From the NCBI GenBank assembly GCA_030613375.1, contig JAUWMC010000004.1, forward strand, positions 1 through 46,143: a stretch of DNA of 46,143 bases, read 5' to 3'. Below, piece after piece: positions 11,965 through 35,058 of the stretch. Position numbers and translations under genes: made by a program. The DNA comes from Microcaldota archaeon (lineage in GTDB: Archaea > Micrarchaeota > Micrarchaeia > Anstonellales > Bilamarchaeaceae). The stretch's first letter is position 1, and every line of letters begins with the position of its first letter. The notes under the pieces were generated by a model. That model worked only from the letters and a program-made list of their open reading frames with translations. It was not told the DNA's origin and did no database searches.

Positions 11965-12813
11965 CTAAGCCAACATCGGAGTTTCGACACTGCTCAAATT
12001 ATCTGAAAATACCATCAACTCCTGTCCAATCCCTGCTTTTCCCGCACTATAATGCAAATTGTATATTCTTTGGCCATATCTAGAATACAATTTTTTAATC
12101 GGTTCTACATTATCATATGTCAGTAACCATTTTTGAGTAATAATCTTTTTTATGTCATCAGAAATTTTTTTGTGATCCATCTCAGAGTAGTGGTTTAGAT
12201 ACAATTCCTTTCCCTTCACGTAGTAAGGGGGATCAAAATAGAAGAGAGTATTCTTAGGAAGCGTATTACGAAGTGAATTCATCAGAACCGAAGCGTCTGA
12301 ATTATATAATCTAATTTGATTTTTGTATCTAGAAATCCGTTTGATCCGATCTATCAAGTTCTCTTTGTTGTATCTCGCATCGATTTTCCATTTTCCTTCT
12401 TGTTTATAGCCTCCAATAACTCCTGCCCGTAGAATTCCGGAATGATTAGTGCGATTTAGGAAAAATGTGGAGAATCCAAGTTCTAATAAACTTCCCCCAG
12501 CCCCAGACTGTTGTTTCTTTTTCTGTCGTTTCCAAACTTTAAGAGTTACTGGAGTTTTTTGTATTAATTCGCAGAGTTCTTCGGTCTCATTAAGAACCGA
12601 ATGCCAAAATGCGAATATTGAATGGTCTATGTCATTAATTATTATCTCCGAAGCGTAACCATCCAAGAGTAGAGAAAGTGCAACTGAGGCTCCCCCAGCA
12701 TAAGGTTCAACATAAGTACAATCTAACAAAGAATTCTCCTGGATTAGCTGTTTGATGTAGGGTATGAGTTTTCCCTTGCCTCCAGGGTAACGGAGTGGAG
12801 AATAAAATGCCAT
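11965..12813 (-). CDS. dam: D12-class DNA adenine N6-methyltransferase (Dam-like)
   Basis: SPLRYPGGKGKLIPYI, VEPYAGGASVALSLL, FYFDPPYYVKG motifs. Confidence 0.92.
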   Translation of the reverse strand: MAFYSPLRYPGGKGKLIPYIKQLIQENSLLDCTYVEPYAGGASVALSLLLDGYASEIIINDIDHSIFAFWHSVLNETEELCELIQKTPVTLKVWKRQKKKQQSGAGGSLLELGFSTFFLNRTNHSGILRAGVIGGYKQEGKWKIDARYNKENLIDRIKRISRYKNQIRLYNSDASVLMNSLRNTLPKNTLFYFDPPYYVKGKELYLNHYSEMDHKKISDDIKKIITQKWLLTYDNVEPIKKLYSRYGQRIYNLHYSAGKAGIGQELMVFSDNLSSVETPMLA

Positions 12814-12817
12814 AAAA

Positions 12818-14119
12818 TCACTTCATGTTCTTCCAAACTAACTCCATAAATTCTTGCATGTTGTCCCAAGCGATATTCAAGTACTCTGGGTTAGGAGAGA
12901 AATTCTTATTATGCACATACTCGTGTAAGGTGGGTATTCCTAACACTCCAGATCCATCTTGCTGCAGTATTGAACTGAGCTGTTTACGTAACTTTTTTGA
13001 AGCGACTCCGCGTGATGATAGGTGATCAGAAATACTAGAAATTTTCTGTCTTAACTTAAGTTGAGCTCCCTTGGGAGTTCTTTTTGGCAATTTATGATTT
13101 TCGATATAGCAATCACAACTCAGTTCTAGAAAAACTCTAAACAATACTGCAGTTGCATTAGAGAAATCTTTCAGTTTTAACTTTTTAAATTCGTGAGATA
13201 TCCTGTTAAGTTTTGGATAATCATGAATATTTTCAAAGGTGACATTCTTTGGGATCAAACACGTTCGAAAAGCAGGCTGAGCTTTTTTTCTTGAAGAATC
13301 TTCCTTACCCGCGATGAGATTGATGATATTCTCACGGTCCTTTTTGTCATATATTTTCTTAACTTTAAACGAGGGATCTGAAAGAACAGTCACAAGTTTA
13401 GATAATCTTCTCACACTTTCTTTTTTAGGTATAGAAAAATCTAGTTCCCCGTCTTTTGTTCTGATGCCTAATCGAGATCTGACATATGGATCGCTAAGCA
13501 TACGCTCTAAGTTTGTAATTGATAGTTTTCCTAGTTGTTTTTTTGTCGTTGTACCAGGTTCAGACACCTCTTGAAGAAGATTCATAACTTGTTGGGCCAT
13601 CTGTTTTTGTGGGGGGAGTTTCTCGGAGGTTCGTTCTTCAAAAATACGTCTTTGTTGAGTATCCCAACCAACAAGCCCCACACCATTGTTTTGACCAGTA
13701 TGCTCTAGTTTAATCCACTTGTTCGCCTCATCTATACTATCAAAAACCACACAAGTTACTTCATTTATTGGGTTTGAAAGATAGATACGGTGAAGCTCCT
13801 TAAATCTTTTTTTAATAGAAACTTGTGAGGGATCATCTATTAGTTCTGGATTTGACAACAATTTTAACGCAATGATTCTACGATTCCCCTCCAAAACATT
13901 AAATCTGTTCGGATCCCCATTAATGGGAAATACTGCTATCCTCCTAAGAGGACTAAGTCTATTCTCAAGAATGTGTTCTGCAAGACGACACAAGTTATTT
14001 CCTTGATTTTTGATCATTCGCTCTATCGCTTCTTTCTGATTAGACATCACCTCAAAACGGTAGTTCTCCTTATTTACGCTGAGATCATTCAAAAGGATCA
14101 CTTTTTCAATTATCGTCAT
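12818..14119 (-). CDS. ParB-like N-terminal domain protein
   Basis: RFNVLEGNRRIIALKLL ParB/Srx-like motif; start likely MTIIEKVILLNDLSV at 14119; 4-nt gap to the methylase gene. Confidence 0.6.
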   Translation of the reverse strand: MTIIEKVILLNDLSVNKENYRFEVMSNQKEAIERMIKNQGNNLCRLAEHILENRLSPLRRIAVFPINGDPNRFNVLEGNRRIIALKLLSNPELIDDPSQVSIKKRFKELHRIYLSNPINEVTCVVFDSIDEANKWIKLEHTGQNNGVGLVGWDTQQRRIFEERTSEKLPPQKQMAQQVMNLLQEVSEPGTTTKKQLGKLSITNLERMLSDPYVRSRLGIRTKDGELDFSIPKKESVRRLSKLVTVLSDPSFKVKKIYDKKDRENIINLIAGKEDSSRKKAQPAFRTCLIPKNVTFENIHDYPKLNRISHEFKKLKLKDFSNATAVLFRVFLELSCDCYIENHKLPKRTPKGAQLKLRQKISSISDHLSSRGVASKKLRKQLSSILQQDGSGVLGIPTLHEYVHNKNFSPNPEYLNIAWDNMQEFMELVWKNMK

Positions 14120-14230
14120 ATGCACCACATGAATATGAATTATCATACTGTAGATATAAAAATCTTGCACAAGAAGCCTCCCGAGGTGATGCCTTAATTT
14201 TTTCCATTTCCCACCACCAAATCCATTCAA

Positions 14231-14477
14231 TCAAAACTGAATATTGGCGGTAAAAATGGCCGTAGTTTGATTGGCATGACATCATCTAAATTTTCAATGT
14301 CTTTATCAAAAAGTTCTATCAGATTTTTTTGATATTTTTTATAGTATGTCTTCTTCAATTCTTTCCGTTTGATATATTTATCTTCGTCAAACTGGCACAT
14401 TCCCACCTAGGACATATAATGAGTTGGTTTTCCACTTCCATTTTCGAGATAAGGGGATTGCTACAATCGGTTTTCAT
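14231..14477 (-). pseudogene. Frameshifted small ORF coupled to the type IIG R-M gene (ATGA overlap)
   Basis: Frame 1 MKTDCSNPLISKMEVENQLIICPRWECASL..., continuing in another frame as MCQFDEDKYIKRKELKKTYYKKYQKNLIELFDKDIENLDDVMPIKLRPFLPPIFSFD*. Confidence 0.4.
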
Positions 14478-17239
14478 TTCAACCTTTCTTCAATCATCTT
14501 CTTTTCTTTTTCGGTTATTCCATAAATTCTGTAGATCTTATCATCTATCTCTGTATCGATTTTGAGTATCTCCTGCTCAATCCTAAATTTTTCATCAGTT
14601 TGTTTATCCTTCAGAACGTTGTTCCTTTCGACCAAATGCCTCAATTTATCCACTAAAACGACTATTTCTTCTTGTTTCACCATATTGGAAATCTTAATAG
14701 GAAATAATTTGGCATTTTGTATCAATATTTTCTGGAACAGCCTTTTGGACTTGTCCAGAAACTTTTCCCTATGATAAAAATTGATTAATTTTGAATTGAG
14801 CAATGCTAAGACATACTTAATCCTAACCTGGTTCTCATCACGGATAAGAATATTAAAGGCAACTTGTGAGTTGTAAAGTTCTAATTCAGAGTATCCAGCG
14901 TATATTCTAGGTGGTTTTCCACTCACAATCTGCCTGATAAGAATACGTGGTCTGGTGAAAAACCTCTCTTCTCTGGGAGCACCTAACTTGTTTCCATACT
15001 TGATCCAATTTTCCCCATTCCAGAACACACCATAACGCAAGATATCCCCCCCTGAAAGCAGTCGTTTAAACGTAGAATCTTTTTGATGATTTGCATGGAA
15101 TACCCTTGTTTTAATCTGTTCCTGAGTATGTCCTTTGTACTTATCATAAGGTGTTAATCCCAATGAAAAATCAGCAACTTTAATCAAAGGTACTGTGTCC
15201 TGCACTATCTTCCTTAATACTGAACTAACCTTTTCATCTGCAAATATGTTAAATACTTTTTTTTCGTTTTTATCCCAACCCCTCTGATTTACTGTTAATG
15301 TTTGATTAGCAGTTTCTTTAGAGATTAAATCGATCTTCCCATCACTATCATATAATAATATCTGTGTCTTGTTAATCTTCATCGAATCTTTCTTTTTAAA
15401 GATTAGAATTATGGTCTCCACTTTAGCCCCTTCAAAAACATTATCCGGCATTCTTACTATCTTGACTAAATTTGTGGTTTCCATTAAAAACCGCCGTATT
15501 TTTTCGTATGAGCTATTAAATAAAATCGAATTCGGGATAATAAATCCAAAATAGCCTCCTTTTTTGAGTAATTTGACACAACGTTCAACGAATAGAGAAT
15601 AGAGATTTATTCTGTTTTCAGCGGTTTTATATCCACTGAATAAAGCAGCAACTTGATCTGGAGGCAACGTTTTTATGTCTACATATGGGGGATTTCCAAC
15701 AATAATGTCAAAACCTCCCTCCGCCATTATCCCTTCGAACTCAGAATCCCAATTAAACGCTTTGTCCCCTGCAACCTCAGCATCATCAATTAAAGAATTT
15801 CCAACCTTCACATTCTTATCAAGAGCAGGAAGGAGGTGCCTTTTCTCAGCAGCCTTCAAAAGCAAATTCAACCGAGAAATCTCCACCGCCTTCTCATCCA
15901 AATCCACTCCATAAACATTATCGCGAAGAATCTCAATCTTCTTAGTAATCGGAACCCCATCTCCTCCAAGCTTACTCTGCCCATACTTCCCTTTCAACTT
16001 CCGTGCCCAATACGAATCCAGCTCATCAAAAACCCTCAAAAGAAAAGAGCCCGAACCACACGCAGGATCCAAAACCTTAATGTTCGCAACAGTCTCCGCC
16101 CGTTTCCCCTTGATATGCTCCCCAACAGTATTCTTCACTATATAATCCACAACATAAGTTGGAGTATAATAAATTCCCTGTTCTTTCCTTTTCTTATGCG
16201 ATTTCTCAACTTTAGCCCTTTTAGCAGTCTTCTTCAAAAGATGCCCCAGATACTGCTCATACATATTCCCCAAAACATCTGCATTTATAGCAGAAAAATC
16301 ATAGTGAATTGAACCATCCGAAGTTCGATACGTCCCCCGAATAACATCCATTAAAACATCATTATCTATCTTAAGATCTTCAGAAAAGTGCCCAGAAGCA
16401 AACAACTTACTATTAAACGCCTTATCATACTCCCGAAACAACTCATTCAAAGCATCAATTACCTTCCCCCTTTTACGCGATTCAAAATCACGCACCAACT
16501 CAATTAATTTAGGACCAACAGAAATACGACGATCCTCCGCAGTACGAACAAATACCAAACGGTCTAGAATCCTCTGTACAGCCTCATCCAGCTCATCTGA
16601 GGAGATATCATACTTAGAGTTATGCTTTACAATATCCTTGCTTAAAGCACCCCTCCAACGCATCATATCCTCAAAAATCTGCTTTCCAACTGGAGTTTTC
16701 ATCCGTTTCTTTCCTACTTTTAGGGCTTCGGCACTCAATTTGCCTTCTTCCATACTTTCCCTGGAGAGCAACCAAAGTTCCTCAAAACGCGGAACATACT
16801 CATAATGGGCAAATTCCTTGAATTTGTTAATGGAGGGGTCCCCAGTGTACTTCCACTCAGCATTGAACACCTTCAGACCTTCAAAATCAGTCAAAATGGC
16901 CCAGGCACAATCCTTATGCCAAGAATAATCTATGGCCTGCTTGGAGAATATGGGGTCATTCAGGTCTGCCTTGACTCTTTTAGCTTCTACAAAGAATTTA
17001 GGTATTCCATTTATTCTAAAACCATAATCTACTCGTTTTTTGGAAATATTCTCTTCCATTGAAACTTCATCTGAAACTGCTGAGAAGTCCCAACCAAGGG
17101 CTTCGAATAAGGGCTGAATATAACGGGTTTTGGTCTCTTCTTCAGAGTACTTGTTGGCTTTTCCGCTTTCTAAATCTTTTTTGAAATGTTCAACTAGTTT
17201 GGATACCCTCTCTTTAGCGTCAGCCTTAGAAATAGTCAT
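14474..17239 (-). CDS. Type IIG (Eco57I-like) restriction-modification enzyme
   Basis: 921 aa; N-terminal nuclease-like region (VDYGFRINGIPKFFVEAKR), LDPACGSGSFLLRVFDEL, DIIVGNPPYVDIK, C-terminal target-recognition-like region. Confidence 0.88.
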   Translation of the reverse strand: MTISKADAKERVSKLVEHFKKDLESGKANKYSEEETKTRYIQPLFEALGWDFSAVSDEVSMEENISKKRVDYGFRINGIPKFFVEAKRVKADLNDPIFSKQAIDYSWHKDCAWAILTDFEGLKVFNAEWKYTGDPSINKFKEFAHYEYVPRFEELWLLSRESMEEGKLSAEALKVGKKRMKTPVGKQIFEDMMRWRGALSKDIVKHNSKYDISSDELDEAVQRILDRLVFVRTAEDRRISVGPKLIELVRDFESRKRGKVIDALNELFREYDKAFNSKLFASGHFSEDLKIDNDVLMDVIRGTYRTSDGSIHYDFSAINADVLGNMYEQYLGHLLKKTAKRAKVEKSHKKRKEQGIYYTPTYVVDYIVKNTVGEHIKGKRAETVANIKVLDPACGSGSFLLRVFDELDSYWARKLKGKYGQSKLGGDGVPITKKIEILRDNVYGVDLDEKAVEISRLNLLLKAAEKRHLLPALDKNVKVGNSLIDDAEVAGDKAFNWDSEFEGIMAEGGFDIIVGNPPYVDIKTLPPDQVAALFSGYKTAENRINLYSLFVERCVKLLKKGGYFGFIIPNSILFNSSYEKIRRFLMETTNLVKIVRMPDNVFEGAKVETIILIFKKKDSMKINKTQILLYDSDGKIDLISKETANQTLTVNQRGWDKNEKKVFNIFADEKVSSVLRKIVQDTVPLIKVADFSLGLTPYDKYKGHTQEQIKTRVFHANHQKDSTFKRLLSGGDILRYGVFWNGENWIKYGNKLGAPREERFFTRPRILIRQIVSGKPPRIYAGYSELELYNSQVAFNILIRDENQVRIKYVLALLNSKLINFYHREKFLDKSKRLFQKILIQNAKLFPIKISNMVKQEEIVVLVDKLRHLVERNNVLKDKQTDEKFRIEQEILKIDTEIDDKIYRIYGITEKEKKMIEERLK

Positions 17240-17293
17240 AAAATGGCTTCTGCGAGAGCATTTAAAAGGTTTATAGAATCATAATAATGCCCT

Positions 17294-18748
17294 ATGAGTA
17301 AAAAAAGTCTGGGCGAAGCTAAAGCGCATAAAAACTTAGTAAGGAAAACAAAGGAACTATTAAGCGAGTATGGATTTTTTATACTTGATTCGGACAAAGA
17401 GATGCTGAAGTATCTTAGAGAAACATATAGATATGCCCATAAGACAGTTCCCGATTTAATCTGTGTTCAGAATAAAGCCCAAGAGAATAATAAATCTATG
17501 TCTGATTTTATAATAGAAGTAAAAAGTGGAAAAAATCTGACTTGTGATGATGAAAAACAACTAAAAAACTTCTCATCTTGCATCTCAACATATCTTTTGG
17601 TAGAACGTGAAAATAGCAAAATTCTCCAGAGGCATAAAAAAAGTAAAATTAGATCACAAGTTGGCTTATTAGTGTTTGATAAAAAGAGGAGGATTCTGGA
17701 ACAATGTTGCCCCGCTTTCTTAAATATAGTTAATTTTAAAGGTAAGAAACAGAAACTCCCACATAGAATACTTGAATTTTTGGTGTGTGACAATCCCATC
17801 TGCCTAGATGGAATGGATTATGTGCTTTTTACTGACCGCAACCCCCATGCCCTTAAAAATTCGTTTTATTCGGATGGCAAAGAACACACAACAGCACATT
17901 ATTTAGATTACGGTAAATTTGGGGGGTCTTGGAAGCACTTTAAAAATGAATTCGTTAATTCGTTGCATAAATTATTCAAAAGCAAAAAAATTACTAACTC
18001 TAATTCGCTTTGGGGATTCTCTATAGGGTTATCGCAACATTCCTCCCACAAAACGGTTTTTGGTTATGGTCTTCCCAGTTTTATAGTAATGTTGGAGCGG
18101 ATAGTGAAAAACCATGACACTGGATCCCAAAAGAGACCAAACTTACGAACATTAGATGATCAATGTATATCAGAACCTTGGCACAACACAGACTTTTTCT
18201 TTTACACTTTTTTTGAAACTGAGAAAGGAGCAGAAAACTTACAATATATCCGTGGAAAACTAGATTTTCTCAAACAACGAGGGAGAAAAGCCAGATTAGT
18301 AAAAGCATCTATAGAGGATAGCTATTATTTTTCAGATTTGATCCACACTAGCTTTATCCAAGAATTCTCGGAATACCTTGGAATCAATCCTTTCTTTCAA
18401 ATAGATGGAATAGACTTGTTGCTGGCTGACCCTCAATTCAAAAAGACAAAGACCGTTACGATCGAAAACCCAAAATCCATTTGGTACCTTACTGAAATAA
18501 CTGAGTGGGGAGATATAAACAGAATCTTTTTCATGGGAACCATTAACAATCAGCAAGTAGGTTTGACCAGCTACGACCCAAAAATAATCCAACGTGTGCT
18601 TTTGGGTAGAAAAATGCGGGCACTATTCAGAAGACCGAAACAGAGAGTTTTTCGCTTTGATGGCCCTACTGGGATTAGCCCATGCATAGAAGTGGAAGCC
18701 ATACATGGAGTTAGGAAAAAGTCTCAACCCATTAAAAAGAAGAGATAG
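17294..18748 (+). CDS. PD-(D/E)XK nuclease-like protein with uncharacterised C-terminal region
   Basis: 484 aa; VPDLICVQ...DFIIEVKSGKN fits PD-x(n)-ExK near the N-terminus; divergent from the R-M gene. Confidence 0.5.
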   Translation: MSKKSLGEAKAHKNLVRKTKELLSEYGFFILDSDKEMLKYLRETYRYAHKTVPDLICVQNKAQENNKSMSDFIIEVKSGKNLTCDDEKQLKNFSSCISTYLLVERENSKILQRHKKSKIRSQVGLLVFDKKRRILEQCCPAFLNIVNFKGKKQKLPHRILEFLVCDNPICLDGMDYVLFTDRNPHALKNSFYSDGKEHTTAHYLDYGKFGGSWKHFKNEFVNSLHKLFKSKKITNSNSLWGFSIGLSQHSSHKTVFGYGLPSFIVMLERIVKNHDTGSQKRPNLRTLDDQCISEPWHNTDFFFYTFFETEKGAENLQYIRGKLDFLKQRGRKARLVKASIEDSYYFSDLIHTSFIQEFSEYLGINPFFQIDGIDLLLADPQFKKTKTVTIENPKSIWYLTEITEWGDINRIFFMGTINNQQVGLTSYDPKIIQRVLLGRKMRALFRRPKQRVFRFDGPTGISPCIEVEAIHGVRKKSQPIKKKR

Positions 18749-20531: not shown

Positions 20532-21890
20532 ATGACTTCTTTAACGTTTTATGGCGGCGCAGGAGAAATCGGCGGAAACAAGATTCTCCTGGAAGACAAA
20601 GATGCCAAAATCTACCTGGACTTCGGCCAAGAGTTCAACTTTGGAGAGGAGTATTTCTGGGAGTATTTGCAGCCAAGAGGAGCAAATGGATTGGAGGTTT
20701 ATTTTGAGTTTGGATTGCTGCCGGAAGTGGAGAAGCTCTACTCGAGGAAGAAGCTAGAGAGGACCAAGCTAAAGTACCAGGAGCCGGACGTAGATGGAGT
20801 AATCATAAGCCACATACACTCGGACCACATGGGCCACCTTCCCTTCCTGGATGAGGGGATTCCGGTTTACATGGGGCACGGGACGCACAAATTAGCAGAG
20901 ATATACCATAAATTATACCCTTCATTCTTCAATATAGGCACGCACTCAAGCATAACGCACTTCAGGTCAAGGGAGAAGTTCAAAGTAAAGCACCTGGAGG
21001 TAGAGCCCATCCATGTAGAACATTCCGCCCCGGGGGCTTACGGGTTCATAATCAAAACAAGCAAGGGAAATATTGTATATACCGGGGATTTCAGGATTCA
21101 TGGCCCAAGGAAGGACATGACTGAGGAGTTCATAAAGAAGGCAAAGGAGGCAAAGCCGTATGCTTTGATATGCGAAGGGACAAGGATGGAGCAGGAGAGT
21201 GAGCATAATTTCACTGAGAAAGAGGTGGAGGAGCGGGTTTCAGGGATTGTTTCCGGGTCTAAAGGGTTGGTGTTCGGGTACTTCGCAATGAGCAATATAG
21301 ACCGCTTTATGAGTTTTTACAGGGCTGCAAAGGAGAACGGGAGAATGCTGGTGATTGATACCAGGCTTGCATACGTGGTGCAGGAGATGAGGGAGAAGAT
21401 TCCGGTGCTTCCGGATGTAATGAAAGACAGGAACATAAGGGTGTATTACAGGCTGGCGAAATCCTGCACTTTTACTGAAAAGGACTATTATGTGTGGGAA
21501 AGGGAATTTATGGAGAATATGGTTACTTATGAGGAGATAAAGAAAAATCCTTCAGAGTATTTAGTGCATTTGAATTTCAACCGTTTAATTGAATTGGTTT
21601 ATTTGCAGCCTTCTGAAGCTGATTTTATTTACTCTAGTTCTGAGCACTTTTTGGAAGGCGAGGGGAACGAAGAGGAGAGAAAACGCTGGGAAGCGTGGAT
21701 GAAGCATTTTGGGATTAAGTTTCATAAGGCGCACTGCTCCGGGCACGCTTCCAAAAAGGATTTAGAAAGAGTTATTAAGGAGATAAATCCTGAAGTTTTG
21801 ATTCCAGTGCATACGAACGTTCCTGAGGCGTTTAAGGAGTTTCATTCTAATGTGAAGATTCCTACGAAAGGGGAAAGACTGGAACTATAG
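20532..21890 (+). CDS. MBL-fold RNase J/CPSF-like metallohydrolase
   Basis: TFYGGAGEIGGNKILLE, SHIHSDHMGHLP, VEHSAPGAYGFII, VYTGDFRIHG, CSGHASKKDL, IPVHTNVPEAF motifs; likely start ATG 20532. Confidence 0.85.
   Translation: MTSLTFYGGAGEIGGNKILLEDKDAKIYLDFGQEFNFGEEYFWEYLQPRGANGLEVYFEFGLLPEVEKLYSRKKLERTKLKYQEPDVDGVIISHIHSDHMGHLPFLDEGIPVYMGHGTHKLAEIYHKLYPSFFNIGTHSSITHFRSREKFKVKHLEVEPIHVEHSAPGAYGFIIKTSKGNIVYTGDFRIHGPRKDMTEEFIKKAKEAKPYALICEGTRMEQESEHNFTEKEVEERVSGIVSGSKGLVFGYFAMSNIDRFMSFYRAAKENGRMLVIDTRLAYVVQEMREKIPVLPDVMKDRNIRVYYRLAKSCTFTEKDYYVWEREFMENMVTYEEIKKNPSEYLVHLNFNRLIELVYLQPSEADFIYSSSEHFLEGEGNEEERKRWEAWMKHFGIKFHKAHCSGHASKKDLERVIKEINPEVLIPVHTNVPEAFKEFHSNVKIPTKGERLEL
21771..21890 (+). repeat. 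R0: native 3' end of the MBL gene (template of the repeat family)
   Basis: Encodes VIKEINPEVLIPVHTNVPEAFKEFHSNVKIPTKGERLEL*. Confidence 0.85.
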
Positions 21891-21962
21891 TGGAAACACC
21901 GGAAAGCTACCCTCACTAGGTATTTAACTAAGACATGGGCAATAGTTTTCAGGTGAAAGGAG

Positions 21963-22091
21963 ATGAAAAAGAATGTAACAATCCCTATTGAGGAGTACAG
22001 GAAACTGAAAAGATGTAAGGAGATTGTGCTTCATATTGAAGAGGAAATTCGTGAATTTCGGGAAGAGTTCGCAGAAAAAGCAAGGGAGTAG
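21963..22091 (+). CDS. 42-aa antitoxin-like small protein (MKKNVTIPIEEYRKLKRCKEIVLHIEEEIREFREEFAEKARE)
   Basis: ATG after RBS-like aaaggag; VapB/RHH-type short beta-then-helix pattern; TATA-like ggtatttaa upstream. Confidence 0.5.
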   Translation: MKKNVTIPIEEYRKLKRCKEIVLHIEEEIREFREEFAEKARE

Positions 22092-22164
22092 AGATATCTA
22101 CCAAATTATTATGGTGCAAAAATAGAATAATGTGAACCCCACCTTTGCATCAACCTGGGCAGAT

Positions 22165-23538
22165 TCAAAGCCCGAAATCCCCCATGTCAAAAACCAAAAA
22201 TCCTTCTTTTTTCAGTTTTTCCTTGTTTTTGATGCTTTTTGCAACCAGGCAGTATTTGGGCTTTAGTTTCGTTTCCATAAAAGAGGATGTTTCCACCAGC
22301 TTCTCCAGTACCCTGCGGGCCTTGGAATAATCCAGCCTTTTCCATTTGAATTCGCAAAAATAGATGGTTTTTCCGGAAACACCGACCAAATCTATCTCAT
22401 ACTGCCCCCCGCCTTTTGATTTGGGTATTTTGCCCCACTGCCTTCCAAAGTTCTCCAGCTTTAGCTTTTCCGCAACGAAGTCCGAGCAGATTATTTCAAA
22501 AGAGCGGCCATAAACAGAATTCAGGTCTGTTTTGACTTTTTTTATGAAATCCGGGGACTTTTTTGCGTATTCTGAATAGTTCTTGTAGATGTATGCAAAC
22601 CAGAATCGGATGAGCGGGTGAGCTATCTCGTAAATTCCCCTTTTTCCCTCAAAGGGCTTCACAAAGCGGATAATTTCAAAATAATTTTTAAGCTCATCAA
22701 CCTGGCGGGTAATGGAAGGCACCGGTTTGTTCAGGTAAGCTGCTATAGAGGAAATTGTGTTGTTTCCCGTTGCTATTGCTTCGAGTATGGAATAATATGT
22801 GCCGCTTCTTCCCCCAAACTCCTGATATAGGATAAGCTTTACTTCATCCTCCAGAACAGCGTTTGGAATGAAAAAAAACTCGTCCAGTATCTTTTCAAAG
22901 GGCTTCCCGCCTAAATCAAAATCTTCGATGGAAACATAATATTTTGGATATCCTCCGAAAACGGAATATGCCTTTATCGTATCTTCGGAAGACAGCTTCA
23001 GGATTTTGCACATTTCCACTATAGAATCAAAGGAAAGCGGGTTAAGCCGAATTGATTTTTTTACCCTTCCGTAGAGTGGCTCCTTGGAATCCTGGAATGA
23101 TTTTTTTAGCAGGCCAAGCAGAGAGCCGGAAAAAAGGATCAGGTTTCCTTCATCCTCATGCAAATCCGCAGTTTTTTGCAGAACTCCCATGATTGAAGGA
23201 TCTATTGCATAGAAGTTCTGGAACTCATCAAAAACAATGGCTCCATTAAACCGTTCAATGAGCACTTTGAAAAAATCCTCCCAGCTGGCTACCTCCTCCA
23301 GCTCGCCCAGCACCTTTTTTTGCTTCAAAAGAGAGGCGTATTCGCGCAGCAGGGATTCAGAAGTTTTATTGCGGTTGACAAAGAAATAAAGTCCTTTGTT
23401 TCCAATGAATTCTAGGAGGAGCCGTGTCTTTCCGACTCTCCGGATTCCATAAAGTGCTACCAGGAAAAGCTTATTTTTTGAAAGTTTCTCCAGTTTTTTC
23501 AGCTCTTCCATTTCGGGTTTTCTCCCTACAAACTTCAT
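22165..23538 (-). CDS. Archaeal ATPase (Arch_ATPase/DUF234-type AAA ATPase with C-terminal nuclease-like fold)
   Basis: FVGRKPEMEELKKL, YGIRRVGKTRLLLEF, IVFDEFQNF, C-terminal YEIDLVGVSGKTIYFCEFKWK. Confidence 0.85.
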   Translation of the reverse strand: MKFVGRKPEMEELKKLEKLSKNKLFLVALYGIRRVGKTRLLLEFIGNKGLYFFVNRNKTSESLLREYASLLKQKKVLGELEEVASWEDFFKVLIERFNGAIVFDEFQNFYAIDPSIMGVLQKTADLHEDEGNLILFSGSLLGLLKKSFQDSKEPLYGRVKKSIRLNPLSFDSIVEMCKILKLSSEDTIKAYSVFGGYPKYYVSIEDFDLGGKPFEKILDEFFFIPNAVLEDEVKLILYQEFGGRSGTYYSILEAIATGNNTISSIAAYLNKPVPSITRQVDELKNYFEIIRFVKPFEGKRGIYEIAHPLIRFWFAYIYKNYSEYAKKSPDFIKKVKTDLNSVYGRSFEIICSDFVAEKLKLENFGRQWGKIPKSKGGGQYEIDLVGVSGKTIYFCEFKWKRLDYSKARRVLEKLVETSSFMETKLKPKYCLVAKSIKNKEKLKKEGFLVFDMGDFGL

Positions 23539-23630
23539 TTATATTCACCTACTGAATAATTCAATGAATGAATAACTTTAAAAGACTTTCTTAGGCGCTT
23601 TTCCTGTGTAAATGAGGGTAGGTGGAACGG

Positions 23631-23750
23631 GTTATTAAGGAGATAAATCCTGAAGTTTTGATTCCTGTGCATACGAACGTGCCTGAGAAGTTTAAGGAGC
23701 TTCATTCTAATGTGTTGATTCCTAAGAAAGGGGAAAGGCTGGAATTGTAG
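23631..23750 (+). repeat. R1: displaced copy of the MBL gene 3' end (120 bp)
   Basis: Ungapped comparison with 21771-21890: 109/120 identical; encodes VIKEINPEVLIPVHTNVPEKFKELHSNVLIPKKGERLEL*. Confidence 0.92.
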
Positions 23751-23780
23751 AAAGGAGAAGTGAAAATGGCTTTACTGGCA

Positions 23781-24167
23781 TTAGGTTGCTAAACAAATTG
23801 TGGACAAGTATATGTGAACTACTCCAGTAATTCCATATACTAGTAGAAACAATAGAATTTTTGAGGCCATACTCTCGATCCTAAGTTTATTCCGGAAATG
23901 AGAAAGCCTTGGAGTCAAAACTGCGAAAGAGGCTACTGTCCAGGCAAAAAAATTAAAGACCATTTCCTGCTCATTTGGACAATCACTATACGCATGGTGT
24001 GCCCCGAGTATTACGCCAAGAGCTAAGAATACAAGGAGGATTAGGGCGACCACCCTAACCTTCATAGAAAAATTTGATGCAGTAAAGGCTAGACTATTAA
24101 GGGGGGGATCATCTGTGTACCTAAACCAGCCATTTAGTCTTTCCTGTTTCTTTTTGCCTGTGGCCAT
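23781..24167 (-). CDS. Integral membrane protein
   Basis: 128 aa with hydrophobic helices VVALILLVFLALGVILGAHHA, NFFAWTVASFAVL, ILLFLLVYGITGVVHIYL. Confidence 0.5.
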   Translation of the reverse strand: MATGKKKQERLNGWFRYTDDPPLNSLAFTASNFSMKVRVVALILLVFLALGVILGAHHAYSDCPNEQEMVFNFFAWTVASFAVLTPRLSHFRNKLRIESMASKILLFLLVYGITGVVHIYLSTICLAT

Positions 24168-24259
24168 AGGAATCCTACTCTGCCAAACATTAAAATTCTT
24201 GCCTTTGAAGCCTTGGAGAAAGGGGAAAAATTAGTGCTTCAGAATTAGATGAGGTTTGC

Positions 24260-24826
24260 ATGACGATCACTTTTGATGATGCAAAAGAATTGAATGCGGT
24301 TCCGGAGGAGATCCTACGTAAAGCAGCCAGGGTTTCCCTCTCAGCAGGGCTTAGGGTGAAATTCGCAACTCCGATTACAAGCAATAACTTCATCAGGGTT
24401 GATGAATATTGTGAGCGCGCTCTTGGGCTAGGTGCATCCGGGCTTAAGTTCTATAGGTATATGCAGATTGGAAATGCTTCCCTGGGGCCTTCATTTGAAT
24501 TAAGCGCAAAACAGGAAAAGGAATTTTTTGCGCTTTTTGAAAAAGCAAGGCAAAAATACCCAAAAGAGATTCTTGAGATTTACTTATCTGGAGGTTTTTC
24601 CCCGCGTCCGGGAAGCAGGAATGAGTCGCTTGCGCTTCAAAGCCAGTTTTGCCCGGCTGGGGTGATGCTCTTTACAATGACCCCGGATAATCTTGTTTAT
24701 GGATGCCCATTCCTTATAGAAAAGGGGAATGAAATTGGGATTCTCAAAAAAGAAGGGATTTTTCTCTTTGAAGAGCCATCCAAAGCAGGAAGGGAAAAAT
24801 GCATTGTTTCTGGACAAAAGATATAA
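24260..24826 (+). pseudogene. C-terminal fragment of a radical SAM/SPASM-like protein
   Basis: FCPAGVMLFTMTPDNLVYGCPFL resembles SPASM/C-terminal radical SAM motif; no CxxxCxxC present and the N-terminal barrel is missing. Confidence 0.5.
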
Positions 24827-24887
24827 TAACTACAAATAGTTAGGTTATGCTTTTTGTAGCCATATAAAAAGATTTTGCCAGAAATTT

Positions 24888-24973
24888 CTGTGCATACGAA
24901 CGTGCCTGAAGCGTTTAAGGCGTTTCATTCTAATGTGCTGATTCCTAAAAAAGGGGAAATACTGGAATTATGA
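24888..24973 (+). repeat. R2: displaced copy of the MBL gene 3' end (86 bp)
   Basis: Encodes VHTNVPEAFKAFHSNVLIPKKGEILEL*. Confidence 0.9.
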
Positions 24974-24981
24974 AACACTGC

Positions 24982-25359
24982 TTAAGCTCCCATCTCCCCC
25001 AGTACTTTTTTCTTGAGATTGTCAGTATTATAGTGCACTAACAGGGCATATGCTCCAAAAGCAATAGGGAGAAGAGAAGTCACTGATAGTGCAGATGGGA
25101 ATGAGGTAATGGAAAGGCCAATAAAGAATGTCGTCAAGATAACGATGCCAAGCAGATAAACTTTGGATCCACCTGCAAACCTGGCTGCATATTTCCCCCC
25201 TTCAACTTCTTCAGGATAAAGTGCACATGAGCTGAAAAAGCTCTTGTTAACCAGCAAGTATTTTGCTGGCCCCTTTGAAGCTTTCTCTAATTTGAATTTC
25301 TTTTCCAGCTTCTTGATTGTCTTGTCCCACTCAGCCTTAGTGAATAGTTTATCTGACAT
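24982..25359 (-). CDS. Membrane protein
   Basis: MSDKLFTKAEWDKTIKKLEKKF... with two TM helices; ATG 25359. Confidence 0.55.
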   Translation of the reverse strand: MSDKLFTKAEWDKTIKKLEKKFKLEKASKGPAKYLLVNKSFFSSCALYPEEVEGGKYAARFAGGSKVYLLGIVILTTFFIGLSITSFPSALSVTSLLPIAFGAYALLVHYNTDNLKKKVLGEMGA

Positions 25360-25411
25360 ACATGCACTTCGGAGAGGCAATAATTATAATACTGAGCATA
25401 GAAGCCTGAAC

Positions 25412-26092
25412 ATGGGAGAGTTCAAGGCTGTGCTTTTCGATTTAGATAATACGCTGCTGGATTTCTGGAGCTTTAAGCAGAAGGCCGCGAAAGCCGCGGC
25501 CAGGGCGATGATTAGGAAGGGATTGCCGGAGAAGGAAGGCAGGGTGTACAGGAAAATCTTTGAGGTGTATGATGAGTATGGGGTGGAATACCAGAAGACA
25601 TTCTACCAGGTGATACATCCGTACAGGCTGGAAGTGGGGCAGGCGGAGAGGATACAGCAGGCGGCGATAGTTGCGTACCTGAGGAGCAAGTTCAATTCAT
25701 TGAAGCCGTATCCGGGAGTAGTATCTACCCTGGGGAAGCTGAAAAAGAGGGCGAAGATAGGGATAGTGACCGATGCCCCAAGGAACAAGGCGTGGATGCG
25801 TTTGGTTCTTTCCAGGTTGGACAGGCTGTTTGAAACTGTAGTTACTACGGATGATACAAAAGTTAAGAAGCCGCACAGGGCTCCGTTTGAGGCTGCTTTA
25901 AGGAAACTTAGGGTGGAAGCTTCTGATGCGCTTTTTGTGGGCGATAATAATGACAGGGATATGCTGGGGGCGAAGAAATTAGGCATGAAGGTTTGTTTAG
26001 CTAAGTATGGGGAGAAATTTAAGAGAAATAAGAAAGTTAAGCTGGATTATGAGATTAAGGATTTTAGGGAATTACTGGAGATCGTTGGATAG
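25412..26092 (+). CDS. HAD-superfamily hydrolase
   Basis: VLFDLDNTLLDF (motif I), IVTDAPR, KKPHRAPFEAALRKL, FVGDNNDRDMLGAKKLG; start ATG 25412, not 25244. Confidence 0.9.
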   Translation: MGEFKAVLFDLDNTLLDFWSFKQKAAKAAARAMIRKGLPEKEGRVYRKIFEVYDEYGVEYQKTFYQVIHPYRLEVGQAERIQQAAIVAYLRSKFNSLKPYPGVVSTLGKLKKRAKIGIVTDAPRNKAWMRLVLSRLDRLFETVVTTDDTKVKKPHRAPFEAALRKLRVEASDALFVGDNNDRDMLGAKKLGMKVCLAKYGEKFKRNKKVKLDYEIKDFRELLEIVG

Positions 26093-26193
26093 AGAAAGGG
26101 GGAAAGCTGGAATTATAGTGGAAGCACCGGAAGCCTGCCCCCATCAGGTATTTAAATAAGGCGTGAGCAATAAATTCTAGGTGAAAGCCAATG
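26092..26193 (+). repeat. R4: short 3' tail plus 78-bp downstream promoter block shared with 21888-21965
   Basis: agaaagggggaaagctggaattatag then 78 nt with the same length and ~60/78 identities to the R0 downstream block. Confidence 0.75.
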
Positions 26194-26373
26194 GGAGAAA
26201 ATGTAACTCTGGACATGATTTACCAAGAGCTAAAGGACATACGGAAAGACCTCTCGGTCCTTGAACATGCAGTGATACCAACAGAGAAACTTTCAGATGA
26301 AGAGTTTAAAGAGCACCTGAAAGACCTTGAGGATGCCCTTAAAGGCCCCAGGGCAAATTATAAAGCTGTTTAG
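26191..26373 (+). CDS. RelB-like antitoxin
   Basis: 60 aa acidic helical protein immediately upstream of a RelE-like ORF. Confidence 0.65.
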   Translation: MGENVTLDMIYQELKDIRKDLSVLEHAVIPTEKLSDEEFKEHLKDLEDALKGPRANYKAV

Positions 26374-26383
26374 GAGTTTTTTC

Positions 26384-26650
26384 ATGTTTGATGTTCTGCT
26401 TGGTAAAAAACCTCAGAAATCATTTGGGCAATTGGATGAAAACACCAGGAAAAGGATATTTTCGGTTTTTGAAATTCTTGAGGTAAATCCCTGGCCTGCC
26501 CAAGATTTTGACCTTGCAAAAATAGAAAGCTTGGAAGACTGCTTTAGAATTCGTATTGGAAAATATCGGATCTGTTACCATGTAAATACAAACGCCAAGG
26601 AAATAACTGTGTATCGGATTGAAAAAAAGAAAGATTCTACTTATAAGTAA
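26384..26650 (+). CDS. RelE/ParE-family toxin
   Basis: MFDVLLGKKPQKSFGQLDENTRKRIF...CFRIRIGKYRICYHVNTNAKEITVYRIEKKKDSTYK. Confidence 0.85.
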   Translation: MFDVLLGKKPQKSFGQLDENTRKRIFSVFEILEVNPWPAQDFDLAKIESLEDCFRIRIGKYRICYHVNTNAKEITVYRIEKKKDSTYK

Positions 26651-26659
26651 ATGTCAAAA

Positions 26660-26727
26660 CTGAGGCGTTTAAGGAGTTTCATTCAAATGTTTTGATTCCT
26701 AAGAAAGGGGAAAAGCTGAGATTATAG
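26660..26727 (+). repeat. R3: displaced copy of the MBL gene 3' end (68 bp)
   Basis: ctgaggcgtttaaggagtttcattcaaatgttttgattcctaagaaaggggaaaagctgagattatag = EAFKEFHSNVLIPKKGEKLRL*. Confidence 0.88.
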
Positions 26728-26802
26728 CGGAAACCCAAAGTTTTTATAAAACAATAGACGAATTTGTAGCTAGGTGCAATTATACCTAAAAACAAAAACC
26801 TG

Positions 26803-27171
26803 GTGACTTCTGCAAAGATCTGTGCCGGATCAATTGGGTTGACTCTTATACTTATTGTGCTGTATTTACTGATTCCTGTCGCAATTTCTTTAATTACTGG
26901 AATTAGCCTTTCGGAGGCCAGCGAAGGAGAGCCCTCCAGCACGATCTCTGGCCTGATCGCAATCGGAGTATTTGTGCTGTTAATTTTTTCTGCAATCATA
27001 TTCTCAATTTGCGCATTGCTGATACTGATCGAAATTGTTACTGCAAATAAGAACATTAAATGGAAGATATTTTGGATCCTGGTTTGTGGCATATTTGGAA
27101 TATTCGGGATATTTGCTTATCTGTTCTGGGGGAGAAAGGGGGAAAGCTGGGATCCTAGCGAAAACACCTGA
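26803..27171 (+). CDS. Small multi-TM membrane protein
   Basis: 122 aa; hydrophobic helices; C-terminus (GRKGESWDPSENT) encoded within the R5 repeat remnant. Confidence 0.5.
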   Translation: MTSAKICAGSIGLTLILIVLYLLIPVAISLITGISLSEASEGEPSSTISGLIAIGVFVLLIFSAIIFSICALLILIEIVTANKNIKWKIFWILVCGIFGIFGIFAYLFWGRKGESWDPSENT

Positions 27172-27176
27172 AGGAT
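27131..27176 (+). repeat. R5: degenerate 3' tail remnant
   Basis: ggagaaagggggaaagctgggatcctagcgaaaacacctgaagg aligns with the R4 tail and its downstream tgg-aa-cacc-gaag. Confidence 0.55.
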
Positions 27177-27231
27177 GGTGCTTGCTTCAATATAAAGATA
27201 AAGTGGGAAAGGTATAAATCTTGTTTGCAAC

Positions 27232-28872
27232 ATGAAAAAAGAGATGTATGCAATCAAGCTAATTGCCTTAGCCATATTCATCTCTTCGATTGTGAACTGC
27301 ATTAGTTTCTTGCAGATAACAAATGGCCCTCCTGGACACATCATCTACAATGATTTGGACATTACAACCACTACTCAGATATATGCGTCAGCAACCATCA
27401 CTGAAAACGCCATCGATAGCCCTGTTAAATCCTGTACGTTCTACCTAGATGGAGAAGAACATGCAACATCTGAACCCACTTATTATAATGAACACACAAA
27501 ATTATGCAGATTAGATGAGGGGATTCTCCTGCCTGCAGGATACCACACCATGAGGATATCTTTTGATGGTGGAAATACCATTCATGACCCAAAAATCATC
27601 TTCGTATATTCTCACAACAAAGAAACAGACCTTTCAGTCATACAAGAGAACATATCTCCTCATGGAACTGATTCGGATGCATATGATGGAATCCCATTCG
27701 TGATGAATTATAGAATTTCAGATGCTAGTGGAATAATCCAGGATTTGGAATATTACGTAACCTGGCATGTTGATGGGAAGGAATATGCAAGGCAGAGAGT
27801 TTTGCAGAAACGCCCAAGGGACCACCTAGTAGCCCAAGAGTTTTTGTTGGAAGGGGGAGTGCACACGATTTCAATCAGCATTGATGTGGAAAATGCCCTG
27901 CATGAATCAAACGAGAACAATAATGAACACAGCATGGAAATAAACGTATTTGAAAAACACCCCGGAAAAAAGATCTCCATCAGCATGATTGACCCCTTTC
28001 GTTTGAAACGCCCTTACCCCTACATTGCAAGATATCATGCTACATATTACGTGGCCAACATTGGGGAAGATGACATTGCAGGCCCGCTTACAATCAGAAT
28101 AATTAACTCTGGAGAAGAATCCAATATTACCATACCGTCATTAAACTCCGGAGAAGTGCTTGCATTTCCGGTTTCGTGTTCGGAGAAGGGGCGCAGCCCA
28201 TGTGCGCAAACAGTTGAGATAACGCCAGAAATCTCTGCCGAATCATTCTGGGAGATATATTCTAATAAACAAGGTAGCCTTTATGGATTTGTCTTACTTA
28301 ACTCAAATGACCCTACTGCAACCATTGAAGCACTATCATTTCCATCAAAAATTTGCAGCAATAGTCCATTCAAAATGGAATATTATGTCACCAATGCTGC
28401 ATACTTATCTGATAAGCACTCTAGCAACACCCCGGAACTGACTACAGACGTATTGATAGATGGGAGGGAAATATATTCTGCTAGTTATTCACTAAATGGG
28501 GAAAAGAGACAATTATTTTCAACTCCGAAGATTAGCTTGGAAGAGGGGTGCCATAACTTTTATGTGACAGCTGATTCTGAAGATGCCCTAATATCCAATG
28601 GGCCAAAGGAGGAGATGTTTTATGGTGATGGGGAAAGATATGGGCTGATTTGTGCAGAAAACTGCCTCACAACCGAAGAGAATCTAGAAACGGTTGAAGA
28701 ACTAGATGCGGTGGAAACAATAGCTGAAGTTGCAGAATTTAAGGAAAACCAAACTATTGCGGAGCCTCCCGATGTAAACAAAATTGATGGGGAAAAGAGT
28801 GCGGAAGAAGAAAGCTGCCTGCCTGCGTTTGTGCTGCTGGTTGGCCTTGTTGGATTGGCTTTCAGGACATAG
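27232..28872 (+). CDS. Secreted CARDB-like multi-domain protein with C-terminal ESCLPAFVLL tail
   Basis: N-terminal signal peptide; repeated CARDB-like segments (VENALHESNENNNEHSMEINVF); acidic linker and EEESCLPAFVLLVGLVGLAFRT terminus. Confidence 0.7.
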   Translation: MKKEMYAIKLIALAIFISSIVNCISFLQITNGPPGHIIYNDLDITTTTQIYASATITENAIDSPVKSCTFYLDGEEHATSEPTYYNEHTKLCRLDEGILLPAGYHTMRISFDGGNTIHDPKIIFVYSHNKETDLSVIQENISPHGTDSDAYDGIPFVMNYRISDASGIIQDLEYYVTWHVDGKEYARQRVLQKRPRDHLVAQEFLLEGGVHTISISIDVENALHESNENNNEHSMEINVFEKHPGKKISISMIDPFRLKRPYPYIARYHATYYVANIGEDDIAGPLTIRIINSGEESNITIPSLNSGEVLAFPVSCSEKGRSPCAQTVEITPEISAESFWEIYSNKQGSLYGFVLLNSNDPTATIEALSFPSKICSNSPFKMEYYVTNAAYLSDKHSSNTPELTTDVLIDGREIYSASYSLNGEKRQLFSTPKISLEEGCHNFYVTADSEDALISNGPKEEMFYGDGERYGLICAENCLTTEENLETVEELDAVETIAEVAEFKENQTIAEPPDVNKIDGEKSAEEESCLPAFVLLVGLVGLAFRT

Positions 28873-28921
28873 AGAAATGGAAGGATGATTAGAATTCTAC
28901 TGGAAGCACTGGAAACCTGGA
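28872..28921 (+). repeat. R6: very degenerate tail/downstream remnant
   Basis: gaattctactggaagcactggaaacctgg vs R4 gaattatagtggaagcaccggaagcctgc. Confidence 0.4.
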
Positions 28922-29024: not shown

Positions 29025-29558
29025 ATGCGAACACTTATATCGAGCAAAAAGAGAAAAAAATTAATGCAATTAATACTGGAGAATCCGGAGAGAATTCCTG
29101 GGGTGCGGGAAGTGGCAAGGAAATCTGGGGTGAGCCCGGCATCTGCTTCCGTGCTCATGAACAGCCTGGGGAAGGACGAATTCATAAAGAAGGGGAAGCT
29201 GGACCTGGGAAACCCGGAGGTGAGGGCGCTCAAAACCCTCTTTAATGTGGAGAGGGCAGCGCCTGCGGTGGAAGTGCTTAGGAAAAAGATTCCTGGGGTG
29301 CAGGGAGTGGGAGTATTTGGGAGCTGGGCAAACGGAACCAACCTAAAAGACTCGGATATTGATGTATGGGTGAAGGTAGAGAAGGAGCCAGAAATGCTCA
29401 AGGCTGCGGAAGCGAGGAGGACGCTGGAAAAGAAACTGGGCGCAGGGGTGGACCTGGTGTTCCTGGATAAGAAAAGGGTGAAAGGGCACATGGAAAAGAA
29501 CCCGGTGTTTTACTTTTCGCTGCATTACTCAATTGTATTGTGGGGAGAGGGAGTATGA
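29025..29558 (+). CDS. HTH + minimal nucleotidyltransferase (MNT antitoxin)
   Basis: N-terminal HTH; GVFGSWANGTNLKDSDIDVWV = GS-x(n)-DxD of MNT. Confidence 0.88.
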   Translation: MRTLISSKKRKKLMQLILENPERIPGVREVARKSGVSPASASVLMNSLGKDEFIKKGKLDLGNPEVRALKTLFNVERAAPAVEVLRKKIPGVQGVGVFGSWANGTNLKDSDIDVWVKVEKEPEMLKAAEARRTLEKKLGAGVDLVFLDKKRVKGHMEKNPVFYFSLHYSIVLWGEGV

Positions 29559-29977
29559 TTACTCTTAAAGATTGCATTGAGCAGGGGATGATAAGGGAGA
29601 TTGCGCCTTCAATAGTGCAGGCAAAAAGCCAGATGGAAAAGGCGCAGGTGATGCTGGAAGAAGCGGAGAAGGCAGTGAAAAATGGGAGCCCGAACTCTGC
29701 GGTGCTTGCGGGGTACGCAGCGATGTTTGATGGGGCAATGGCGCTTTTGTTTAAGGATGGATATCGGGAAAGGAGCCATGCGTGTGTAGCAAGGTATTTG
29801 GAAGCGAATTATTCTGAGAAGCTGGGCATTTCTTTTGTGCATTTATTGGACGAATACCGGGAAAAGAGGCACAAGGTTTCGTATTCCTCTGAGTATTATC
29901 CTACTGTTGATGAGGCAAAAAACCTGGTGGAGTTTGCAGGAAAATTCCTGGAAAAAATAGAAAAATTGTTGGAGTAG
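29555..29977 (+). CDS. HEPN-domain toxin (MNT-HEPN pair)
   Basis: MITLKDCIEQGMIREI...AVLAGYAAMFDGAMALLFKDGYRERSH; ATGA overlap with MNT stop. Confidence 0.85.
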   Translation: MITLKDCIEQGMIREIAPSIVQAKSQMEKAQVMLEEAEKAVKNGSPNSAVLAGYAAMFDGAMALLFKDGYRERSHACVARYLEANYSEKLGISFVHLLDEYREKRHKVSYSSEYYPTVDEAKNLVEFAGKFLEKIEKLLE

Positions 29978-33891: not shown

Positions 33892-35058
33892 TTAGTTCCT
33901 GGGCCTTCTTGGGCGCCTGGACTGAGAACCTCTGCCTTTGCGACCAGATCTTCCTTGAGGCTTCGGGCCTCCACGGCCTCCACGCTTGCCTTTCCAGCTA
34001 GAATGGTTTGGTTTTCTCGGCTCATCGTCCGAAATGAAATTGATTACTTTTCCTTCGGCTCCCATGCGCCCGGTTCTCCCAACTCTATGAAGATGAGTTT
34101 CCTTGTTTTCAGCCTTATCAAAATTTACAATGAGGTCTACGTTTTCTATATGTAACCCGCGGGAAGCAACATTGGTTGCAACCAGTATATTGATGGATCC
34201 GTCCTTAAATCCGGAAATAACCTTGTTGCGTCTACATTGCTCCATATCTCCCTGGAGCATGCCTACACCTTCTATATTTCTTTGCTTAAGCTTTGCCTTC
34301 AGCCTGAGTACGCCTCTTTTGGTTCTCATGAAAATAAGGGTTTTTACTCCGCGGTGGGAATCAAGTATCCTATGTAAAGTGGAAACCTTATCTACGTGCG
34401 AAAGCTCGATTTGCTCTTCATTTATTGTAGAAACAACCTTCATCTCCCCAACTTCAATAAACTCGGAATCAGGCATATATTTGGAAATTATGTTCTTTAC
34501 TCCCTTGTCTACGGTTGCTGAAAAAAGAAGTGTTACGTGCTTGGAAGGAAGATGTGAAAGAATAGTCAGCACTTCCTTCTGGAATCCGATATCTAACATA
34601 TGATCTGCTTCATCCAAAACGATTAGGTTGAAGCTGGAAAGATGGATTTTTCTCCTTTTGCATAGATCCTGTAATCTTCCCGGGGTTGCAACAAGAATAT
34701 TGTATTTCTTTTCAAGTTCCCTCAACTGGATGTTTATTTTCTGCCCTCCATATACTGCACAGGTCTTTAGGCCATGTTTTTCTCCAAGTTCTTGTATTTC
34801 CGTAGATACCTGCATTGCAAGTTCTCTTGTGGGAGTTAGCACAAGGGCTTTAGAGGTTTTGCCTGAGGCAATACGTTCAACTATGCCAATTCCAAAAGCA
34901 GCGGTTTTTCCGGTTCCGGTCTGGCTTCGTACAACTAAGTTAGCTCCGGCAAGTATTTTGGGGATAGCTTTTTCCTGCACTTCCGTAGGCTGAGTATAGC
35001 CGCACGCATCTATTGCTTTCAGGGTTTTGCCTGAAAGTCCTAAATCTATAAATTTCAT
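33892..35058 (-). CDS. DEAD-box RNA helicase with RG-rich C-terminal tail
   Basis: SQTGTGKTAAF, PTRELAMQ, VLDEADHMLD, SAT, HRVGRTGRMG; C-terminal KRGGRGGPKPQGRSGRKGRGSQSRRPRRPRN. Confidence 0.95.
   Translation of the reverse strand: MKFIDLGLSGKTLKAIDACGYTQPTEVQEKAIPKILAGANLVVRSQTGTGKTAAFGIGIVERIASGKTSKALVLTPTRELAMQVSTEIQELGEKHGLKTCAVYGGQKINIQLRELEKKYNILVATPGRLQDLCKRRKIHLSSFNLIVLDEADHMLDIGFQKEVLTILSHLPSKHVTLLFSATVDKGVKNIISKYMPDSEFIEVGEMKVVSTINEEQIELSHVDKVSTLHRILDSHRGVKTLIFMRTKRGVLRLKAKLKQRNIEGVGMLQGDMEQCRRNKVISGFKDGSINILVATNVASRGLHIENVDLIVNFDKAENKETHLHRVGRTGRMGAEGKVINFISDDEPRKPNHSSWKGKRGGRGGPKPQGRSGRKGRGSQSRRPRRPRN

Follow-up and report, generated by a model that had tools for sequence, protein, structure and literature searches.

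How did pieces of the 3' end of a single gene come to lie, one after another, between unrelated genes downstream of it? The question is raised by a 46,143-nucleotide stretch of DNA (the window) that constitutes the entire 46-kb contig C89 (JAUWMC010000004.1) of a Microcaldota archaeon, GCA_030613375.1 (here G000), a metagenome-assembled genome (MAG) of 1.16 Mb, 94% complete, whose relatives, from named records, are Micrarchaeota. The window carries an intact gene for a metallo-beta-lactamase (MBL)-fold/beta-CASP protein of the RNase J superfamily, and downstream of it a series of partial copies of its last codons, here called tails, with small gene modules between them (Table 1). An earlier note on the window had proposed repeated insertion at the 3' end of the gene, each event regenerating the terminus and displacing the old one. 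Accretion of this kind is supported by the recurrence of tails in related genomes, by a pair of empty and filled sites and by the presence or absence of modules among relatives; on balance, if by no wide measure, the locus appears to be an accretion array that arose as the 3' end of the MBL/beta-CASP gene was displaced again and again.

The last 126 bp of the MBL gene (R0) were compared by BLASTN with the complete assembly. The tails R1, R2 and R3 of the earlier note were all recovered, and no further tails were found in the whole assembly beyond the copies in the window, except for a 23-bp promoter match. All three share one orientation and keep the stop codon in register. R4, earlier described as a tail only, belongs to a 114-bp match (77%) between 26092-26207 and 21866-21979 that spans the last 25 bp of the gene and about 90 bp beyond its stop, covering the downstream promoter and the start of the antitoxin gene. 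Because this match extends past the stop into a region holding TGGAARCACYGGAA and a TATA-like box, R4 to R6 are now described as a tail end plus the gene's ancestral downstream promoter element P, which makes up most of their length, rather than as independent RNase J tails. The proposed remnants R5 and R6 thus stand as degenerate copies of the R4-type tail-and-promoter block; they are weak taken alone, but R6 is backed by synteny, since at the same position before an MNT-HEPN pair the relatives G001 and G003 have clear tails of 27 bp (26/27 identical) and 41 bp. Some of the 25-bp tails are barely long enough to be recognised and are supported by synteny.

R1 to R3 do share the residues LIPKKGE where R0 has KIPTKGE, a difference that had been taken to mean that they derive from an ancestral or donor version. 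It has been set aside as proof of donor origin, as the intact gene of the congener G004 also carries LIPKKGE and R0 may simply have changed; because of this gene, R0 looks, by sequence comparison, like the derived version of the terminus. R3 matches the displaced tail of G004 better (92-94%) than it does the MBL gene of its own locus (85%), though both of its neighbours differ there.

Element P begins directly after the MBL stop, and is found after R0, R4 and R6 and partly after R3. Within the window TGGAARCACYGGAA occurs at 21891-21904, 26119-26132 and 28901-28914, and in the region downstream of the MBL gene it lies some 20-30 bp upstream of a TATA-like box. Of the ten exact sites genome-wide (L013-L022), most precede a TATA-like box; when as many as two mismatches are allowed, the genome has 125 sites, versus 26 for a reversed control. 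The motif appears to be an upstream element, promoter or operator, of genome-wide occurrence. ACCTnC...CTTCC and, 20-30 bp on, a TATA-like box often come after it, and a related sequence is seen after the MBL stop in G021.

Orthologs from relatives were compared together with their downstream DNA; all of the genomes are MAGs, and order across contigs (e.g. C36/C41 in G001, C36/C45 in G002) has been deduced. Partial copies of the MBL 3' end are present in at least seven other Micrarchaeota (Table 1), while most of the remaining orthologs have no tail in the DNA read. When the last 120 bp of 485 open reading frames (ORFs) from 57 loci were each compared with their own locus, partial 3' copies nearby were found for MBL genes only, all other matches being to full paralogs (Fic, HAD) or, apparently, to a duplication made in assembly. 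The source genome gave the same outcome, with MBL alone among 496 ORFs in a scan of 608 kb, half of the genome, made up of the window and at most 20 kb each of contigs C1-C60. Two other kinds of duplication were seen in passing: several short duplications, 100% identical, at the ends of genes in L096 (G019), probably an assembly artefact, and a 75-bp, 88% copy (L274:15466-15540) of the 3' end of a TnpB-like gene of IS605 OrfB type (L268:126-1313) on another contig, probably a transposon end.

The site can be seen both empty and filled. In G021 the MBL stop directly adjoins P and a GNAT operon. In G024 a GNAT operon 83% identical to it over 899 bp, with the homology starting from within 9 bp of the MBL end, is preceded by about 6.5 kb of modules encoding Fic, ankyrin, HAD, an AAA_14/DUF4143 ATPase, a further HAD and a membrane protein, each module except the last being bounded by an MBL tail. 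The 3' terminus of the gene is therefore where DNA has come in. In G004 the far tail adjoins GNAT and in G027 DEAD, both of them conserved downstream genes.

Among congeners, modules are individually present or absent and have changed neighbours while the anchors are conserved, the presence or absence of segments being what the earlier note had proposed to look for in close strains. The unit consisting of tail, P, RelB and RelE is also found at an unrelated locus of G002 (89% over 568 bp), with a tail on its left and none on its right; the RelBE/R3 junction of the window, compared with G002, has about 3 bp of microhomology. HAD1-MBL adjacency is widespread. Within this genus, G000 and G001 have a bare MBL tail after HAD1; what comes next after HAD1 is RelBE in the window, a permease in G001, an 802-aa homologue in G002 and another gene in G004. 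The 802-aa gene itself lies directly 3' of the MBL stop in G004, its G002 homologue (48%) being the one directly after HAD1. A tail with MNT-HEPN occurs in both G001 and G003, with different neighbours. No DNA match was found in five congeners for modules 1, 2, 5 and 6 or for the membrane ORF of module 3.

Under the displacement account, incoming DNA would bring adjacent cargo together with either an entire MBL gene or its 3' end, and would recombine with the resident MBL. The resident gene would keep or gain an intact terminus, the cargo would settle beside it, and the remnant of the old terminus, 5'-truncated and 25-933 bp long, would move downstream with its own former neighbours; repetition would give stacked tail-cargo units. 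The conserved gene would serve as the anchor of the exchange, which is presumably homologous or illegitimate recombination (microhomology joining or a crossover of RadA type) and not the product of a dedicated recombinase; selection would retain only those events that leave the MBL ORF intact. Several observations fit displacement rather than a fixed att core. Tail lengths range from 25 to 933 bp, with 5' edges at -25 to -933. The five G024 tails are mosaic, in that informative sites within their last 46 bp form blocks backing three conflicting, incompatible groupings, with scattered breaks (max-chi2 p = 0.006 for t0/t1, the best of 18 pairs tested). In G027 and G087 a full-length MBL of one subfamily lies directly upstream of a truncated MBL of the other. 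Some facts weigh on the other side. In most copies the 3' edge is at or very near the stop, as a site-specific system would give; tail lengths are skewed short and not uniform; several short copies start at nearly one position (-25 to -27), a possible core; the mosaic support is modest, and the last ~35 bp evolve fast anyway; and MAG contigs often end at tail repeats, which is why order across them had to be deduced.

The earlier note had called the insertions site-specific. On that account a recombinase acting in trans would use the MBL 3' end as attB, with small non-autonomous cassettes carrying the tail as attP and the terminus being regenerated at each integration. The precise location at the stop codon in the G021/G024 pair, the small size of the modules (1-2 kb), the shared 5' edge of the 25-27 bp tails of R4, R5 and G001, and the tyrosine recombinases encoded elsewhere in some genomes (G000, G001, G003, G032, G053) all agree with it, but the variable 5' edges and mosaic tails do not, and the RelBE unit sits at its non-MBL site without a second tail. 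Nor was a recombinase found in the scanned modules: contig C89 has no PF00589 match, hence no intI is seen adjoining the array, in keeping with the lack of an integrase in the window noted before, and PF00589 was not detected in G004, G024, G027 and G054, four tail-bearing but incomplete MAGs. Stubs of the gene's 5' end also exist, such as one of 53 bp in G045, identical from the ATG, and other gene-start copies in G097 and G003; and profile searches for the full-length gene and the tail found no relative in 2.9 million viral contigs, by which a viral origin was also rejected. Site-specific insertion is thus unsupported, and this account is judged rather unlikely. A fixed crossover core at -26..-15 (AAAGGGGAAAG), suggested by the 25-bp tails, was dropped, as the longer tails and scattered mosaic breaks do not fit it. 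An integron was likewise rejected, the tails having no attC-type fold (eight were folded, with z-scores of -2.1 to +0.3, only one below -1.3) and the array contig no integrase match. An RNA element was rejected, there being no Rfam match, and a diversity-generating retroelement (template repeat/variable repeat) was discounted because no reverse transcriptase was found in the scanned modules and the differences between tails are not restricted to A. It is doubtful, too, that DPANN archaea possess a dedicated cassette-capture system that attaches at the 3' coding end of an MBL/beta-CASP gene associated with CARF and HAD, recombines by an activity possibly supplied in trans, and collects toxin-antitoxin and defence-like modules in integron-like fashion without IntI or attC. 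The 5'-end stubs, mirror images of the tails, lie at L088:1263-1315, L189:263-296, L225:6441-6611 and L119:1-258; that of L088 (53 bp identical from the ATG) is 1.2 kb upstream of an intact gene.

Tails might instead be what is left of tandem paralogs, units of MBL plus cargo having been duplicated and the redundant MBLs having lost their 5' parts. Consistent with this, 5'-truncated MBL copies of 203-310 aa stand beside full-length genes in G027 and G087, a tail directly follows HAD1 where many relatives show HAD1-MBL adjacency, and an ORF in G047 joins the first ~10 to the last ~24 codons (this remnant, L182:7890-7995, has an apparent internal deletion). Because of such truncated copies adjoining full-length MBLs (G027, G087, G032) and the G047 head-tail fusion, some tails are probably remnants of displaced whole genes. 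The finding named beforehand as speaking against insertion, intact tandem MBL paralogs, is partly matched by these cases; arrays of intact orthologs in tandem were not seen. The 3' end is retained in nearly all remnants and the 5' end in few, the cargo between tails is unrelated, so the units were not simply duplicated, and in the five decayed copies of G024 the 5' part would have had to be lost five times independently. As a general account, decay of intact tandem orthologs is only partly supported and is considered unlikely. A retained function of the tail, as a 3' untranslated region or terminator of the preceding cargo gene or as a regulatory element upstream of the next, for which it would be copied or kept, could explain why plus-strand cargo genes usually stop a few bp short of a tail and why P follows several of them; since P is absent from many tails, neither role calls for the 40-300 bp of coding homology at their 5' side, and no consistent structured element was found, it is highly improbable. 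Displacement of the MBL 3' end thus remains the preferred explanation.

The MBL gene contains Lactamase_B_2 and RMMBL Pfam domains; among solved structures its best relative is EF2904 (2AZ4, E 3e-28), an uncharacterised protein and not a canonical RNase J, and this archaeal gene apparently does not encode a toxin. HAD1 is its conserved neighbour across Micrarchaeota. Labels such as "antitoxin-like" on the short ORFs of the modules are tentative, and the 188-aa ORF of module 2 (24260-24826, plus strand), previously read as a SPASM fragment, has no Pfam match. The array lies in a defence-rich region, with a Dam-like methylase, a ParB-like gene and a type IIG restriction-modification enzyme just upstream (11965-18748). 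A cluster of CARF (Csa3-like), HAD1 and MBL/beta-CASP genes, or HAD1-MBL alone, is conserved across Micrarchaeota (L079-L081, L083, L090, L100, L104, L113, L114, L136), at times with an IetA-like AAA ATPase (L078, L094), and is possibly an unrecognised defence or signalling locus.

Table 1. The MBL gene, tails, promoter element and modules of the window (G000), and tails in related genomes.
Genome	Feature	Position	Strand	Remarks
G000	Intact MBL-fold/beta-CASP gene, RNase J superfamily	20532-21890	+	Conserved start at 20532
G000	R0, native 3' terminus, tail reference	21765-21890	+	
G000	Promoter element P, directly after MBL stop	21891-21930	+	TGGAAACACCGGAA at 21891-21904; TATA-like box ~21921-21929
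G000	Module 1	21891-23624		42-aa antitoxin-like ORF (21963-22091, +); DUF234/ATPase_2 gene (22165-23538, -)
G000	R1, displaced tail, 126 bp	23625-23750	+	90% to R0, E 3.3e-43; 93% to G004 gene
G000	Module 2	23751-24883		Membrane ORF (23781-24167, -); 188-aa ORF (24260-24826, +)
G000	R2, displaced tail, ~90 bp	24884-24978	+	85% to R0, E 9e-26
G000	Module 3	24982-26092		Membrane ORF (24982-25362, -); HAD1 hydrolase (25412-26092, +)
G000	R4, tail, 26 bp, directly after HAD1 stop	26093-26118	+	HAD1 likewise followed by tail in G001
G000	Transferable unit: tail, P, RelB, RelE	26096-26663	+	RelB 26191-26373; RelE 26384-26650
G000	R3, displaced tail, 68 bp	26660-26727	+	BLASTN match 26660-26734, 85% to R0, E 1.7e-18; P-like element next
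G000	Module 5, small membrane ORF	26803-27171	+	Weak PLDc_N match
G000	R5, degenerate ~25-bp tail plus P	27131-27176	+	
G000	Module 6, CARDB-domain surface protein	27232-28872	+	
G000	R6, degenerate tail plus P, before MNT-HEPN	28872-28921	+	Clear tails at equivalent position in G001, G003
G000	MNT-HEPN toxin-antitoxin pair	29025-29977	+	Cargo common to genus
G000	DEAD-box helicase	33892-35058	-	Conserved downstream anchor of variable region
G004	Tail by orthologous gene			65 bp, 92%
G024	Five tails in a row by orthologous gene			One of 330 bp, four of 105-142 bp
G027	Tails by orthologous gene			313 bp, 94%; also a 933-bp truncated copy
G003	Tails by orthologous gene			43 and ~38 bp
G001	Copies by orthologous gene			~540-bp frameshifted copy; 25-bp tail
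G032	Tail by orthologous gene			320 bp, here upstream of full gene
G053	Tails by 39%-identical paralog			96 and 88 bp
G106	Orphan tail			87 bp

Several known systems resemble the array in part. The closest parallel may be C-terminal displacement, described for the immunity arrays of the V. cholerae type VI secretion system (T6SS; PMC5361080) and for rhs loci (PMC2935791): a new module joins the 3' part of a conserved gene, and the displaced 3' ends come to lie farther downstream, orphaned among the cargo. For the T6SS arrays, homology-facilitated illegitimate recombination has been proposed, with no integrase implicated (PMC5361080). The MBL locus shares with them same-orientation displaced 3' fragments of one gene with unrelated genes between, and modules present or absent between relatives while the anchors are conserved; it differs in that its tails encode one conserved enzyme C-terminus and not alternative toxin tips, its cargo is unrelated (toxin-antitoxin pairs, ATPases, HAD, Fic) and its hosts are DPANN archaea. 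By this analogy the MBL array would work like C-terminal displacement but outside the toxin class, because every tail encodes the same C-terminus. The genomic islands at gene 3' ends catalogued by Islander (PMC4383910) likewise show a regenerated target terminus, displaced fragments marking endpoints and tandem accretion; unlike them, the MBL modules are without an integrase and only 1-2 kb, the fragment length is variable and the target is protein-coding. Integron cassette arrays and clusters of attC sites lacking an integrase (CALINs), archaeal ones included (PMC9668308, where Micrarchaeota are not mentioned), also have modules of one or two genes with a repeated site between them, toxin-antitoxin cargo and no adjacent integrase, but here the repeats consist of coding sequence from the gene next to the array, have no attC-like fold and separate cargo on both strands. 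Homology-facilitated illegitimate recombination, known from bacterial transformation and conjugation experiments (PMC3240628), has in common with the events proposed here one homologous anchor, one illegitimate junction and a net gain of foreign DNA; at the MBL locus, unlike in those experiments, the process is read from its scars alone.

Gene gain by the streamlined, mostly uncultured DPANN archaea is poorly known, and this locus holds ordered scars of capture in one place. As it also recurs across a family of Micrarchaeota, with both empty and filled examples, the order of capture, the donors and the junctions can be read, and the recombination route can be tested without a cultured host. 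It carries a caution as well: short "tail" homologies after conserved genes may be scars of accretion, not ordinary pseudogenes or attachment sites.

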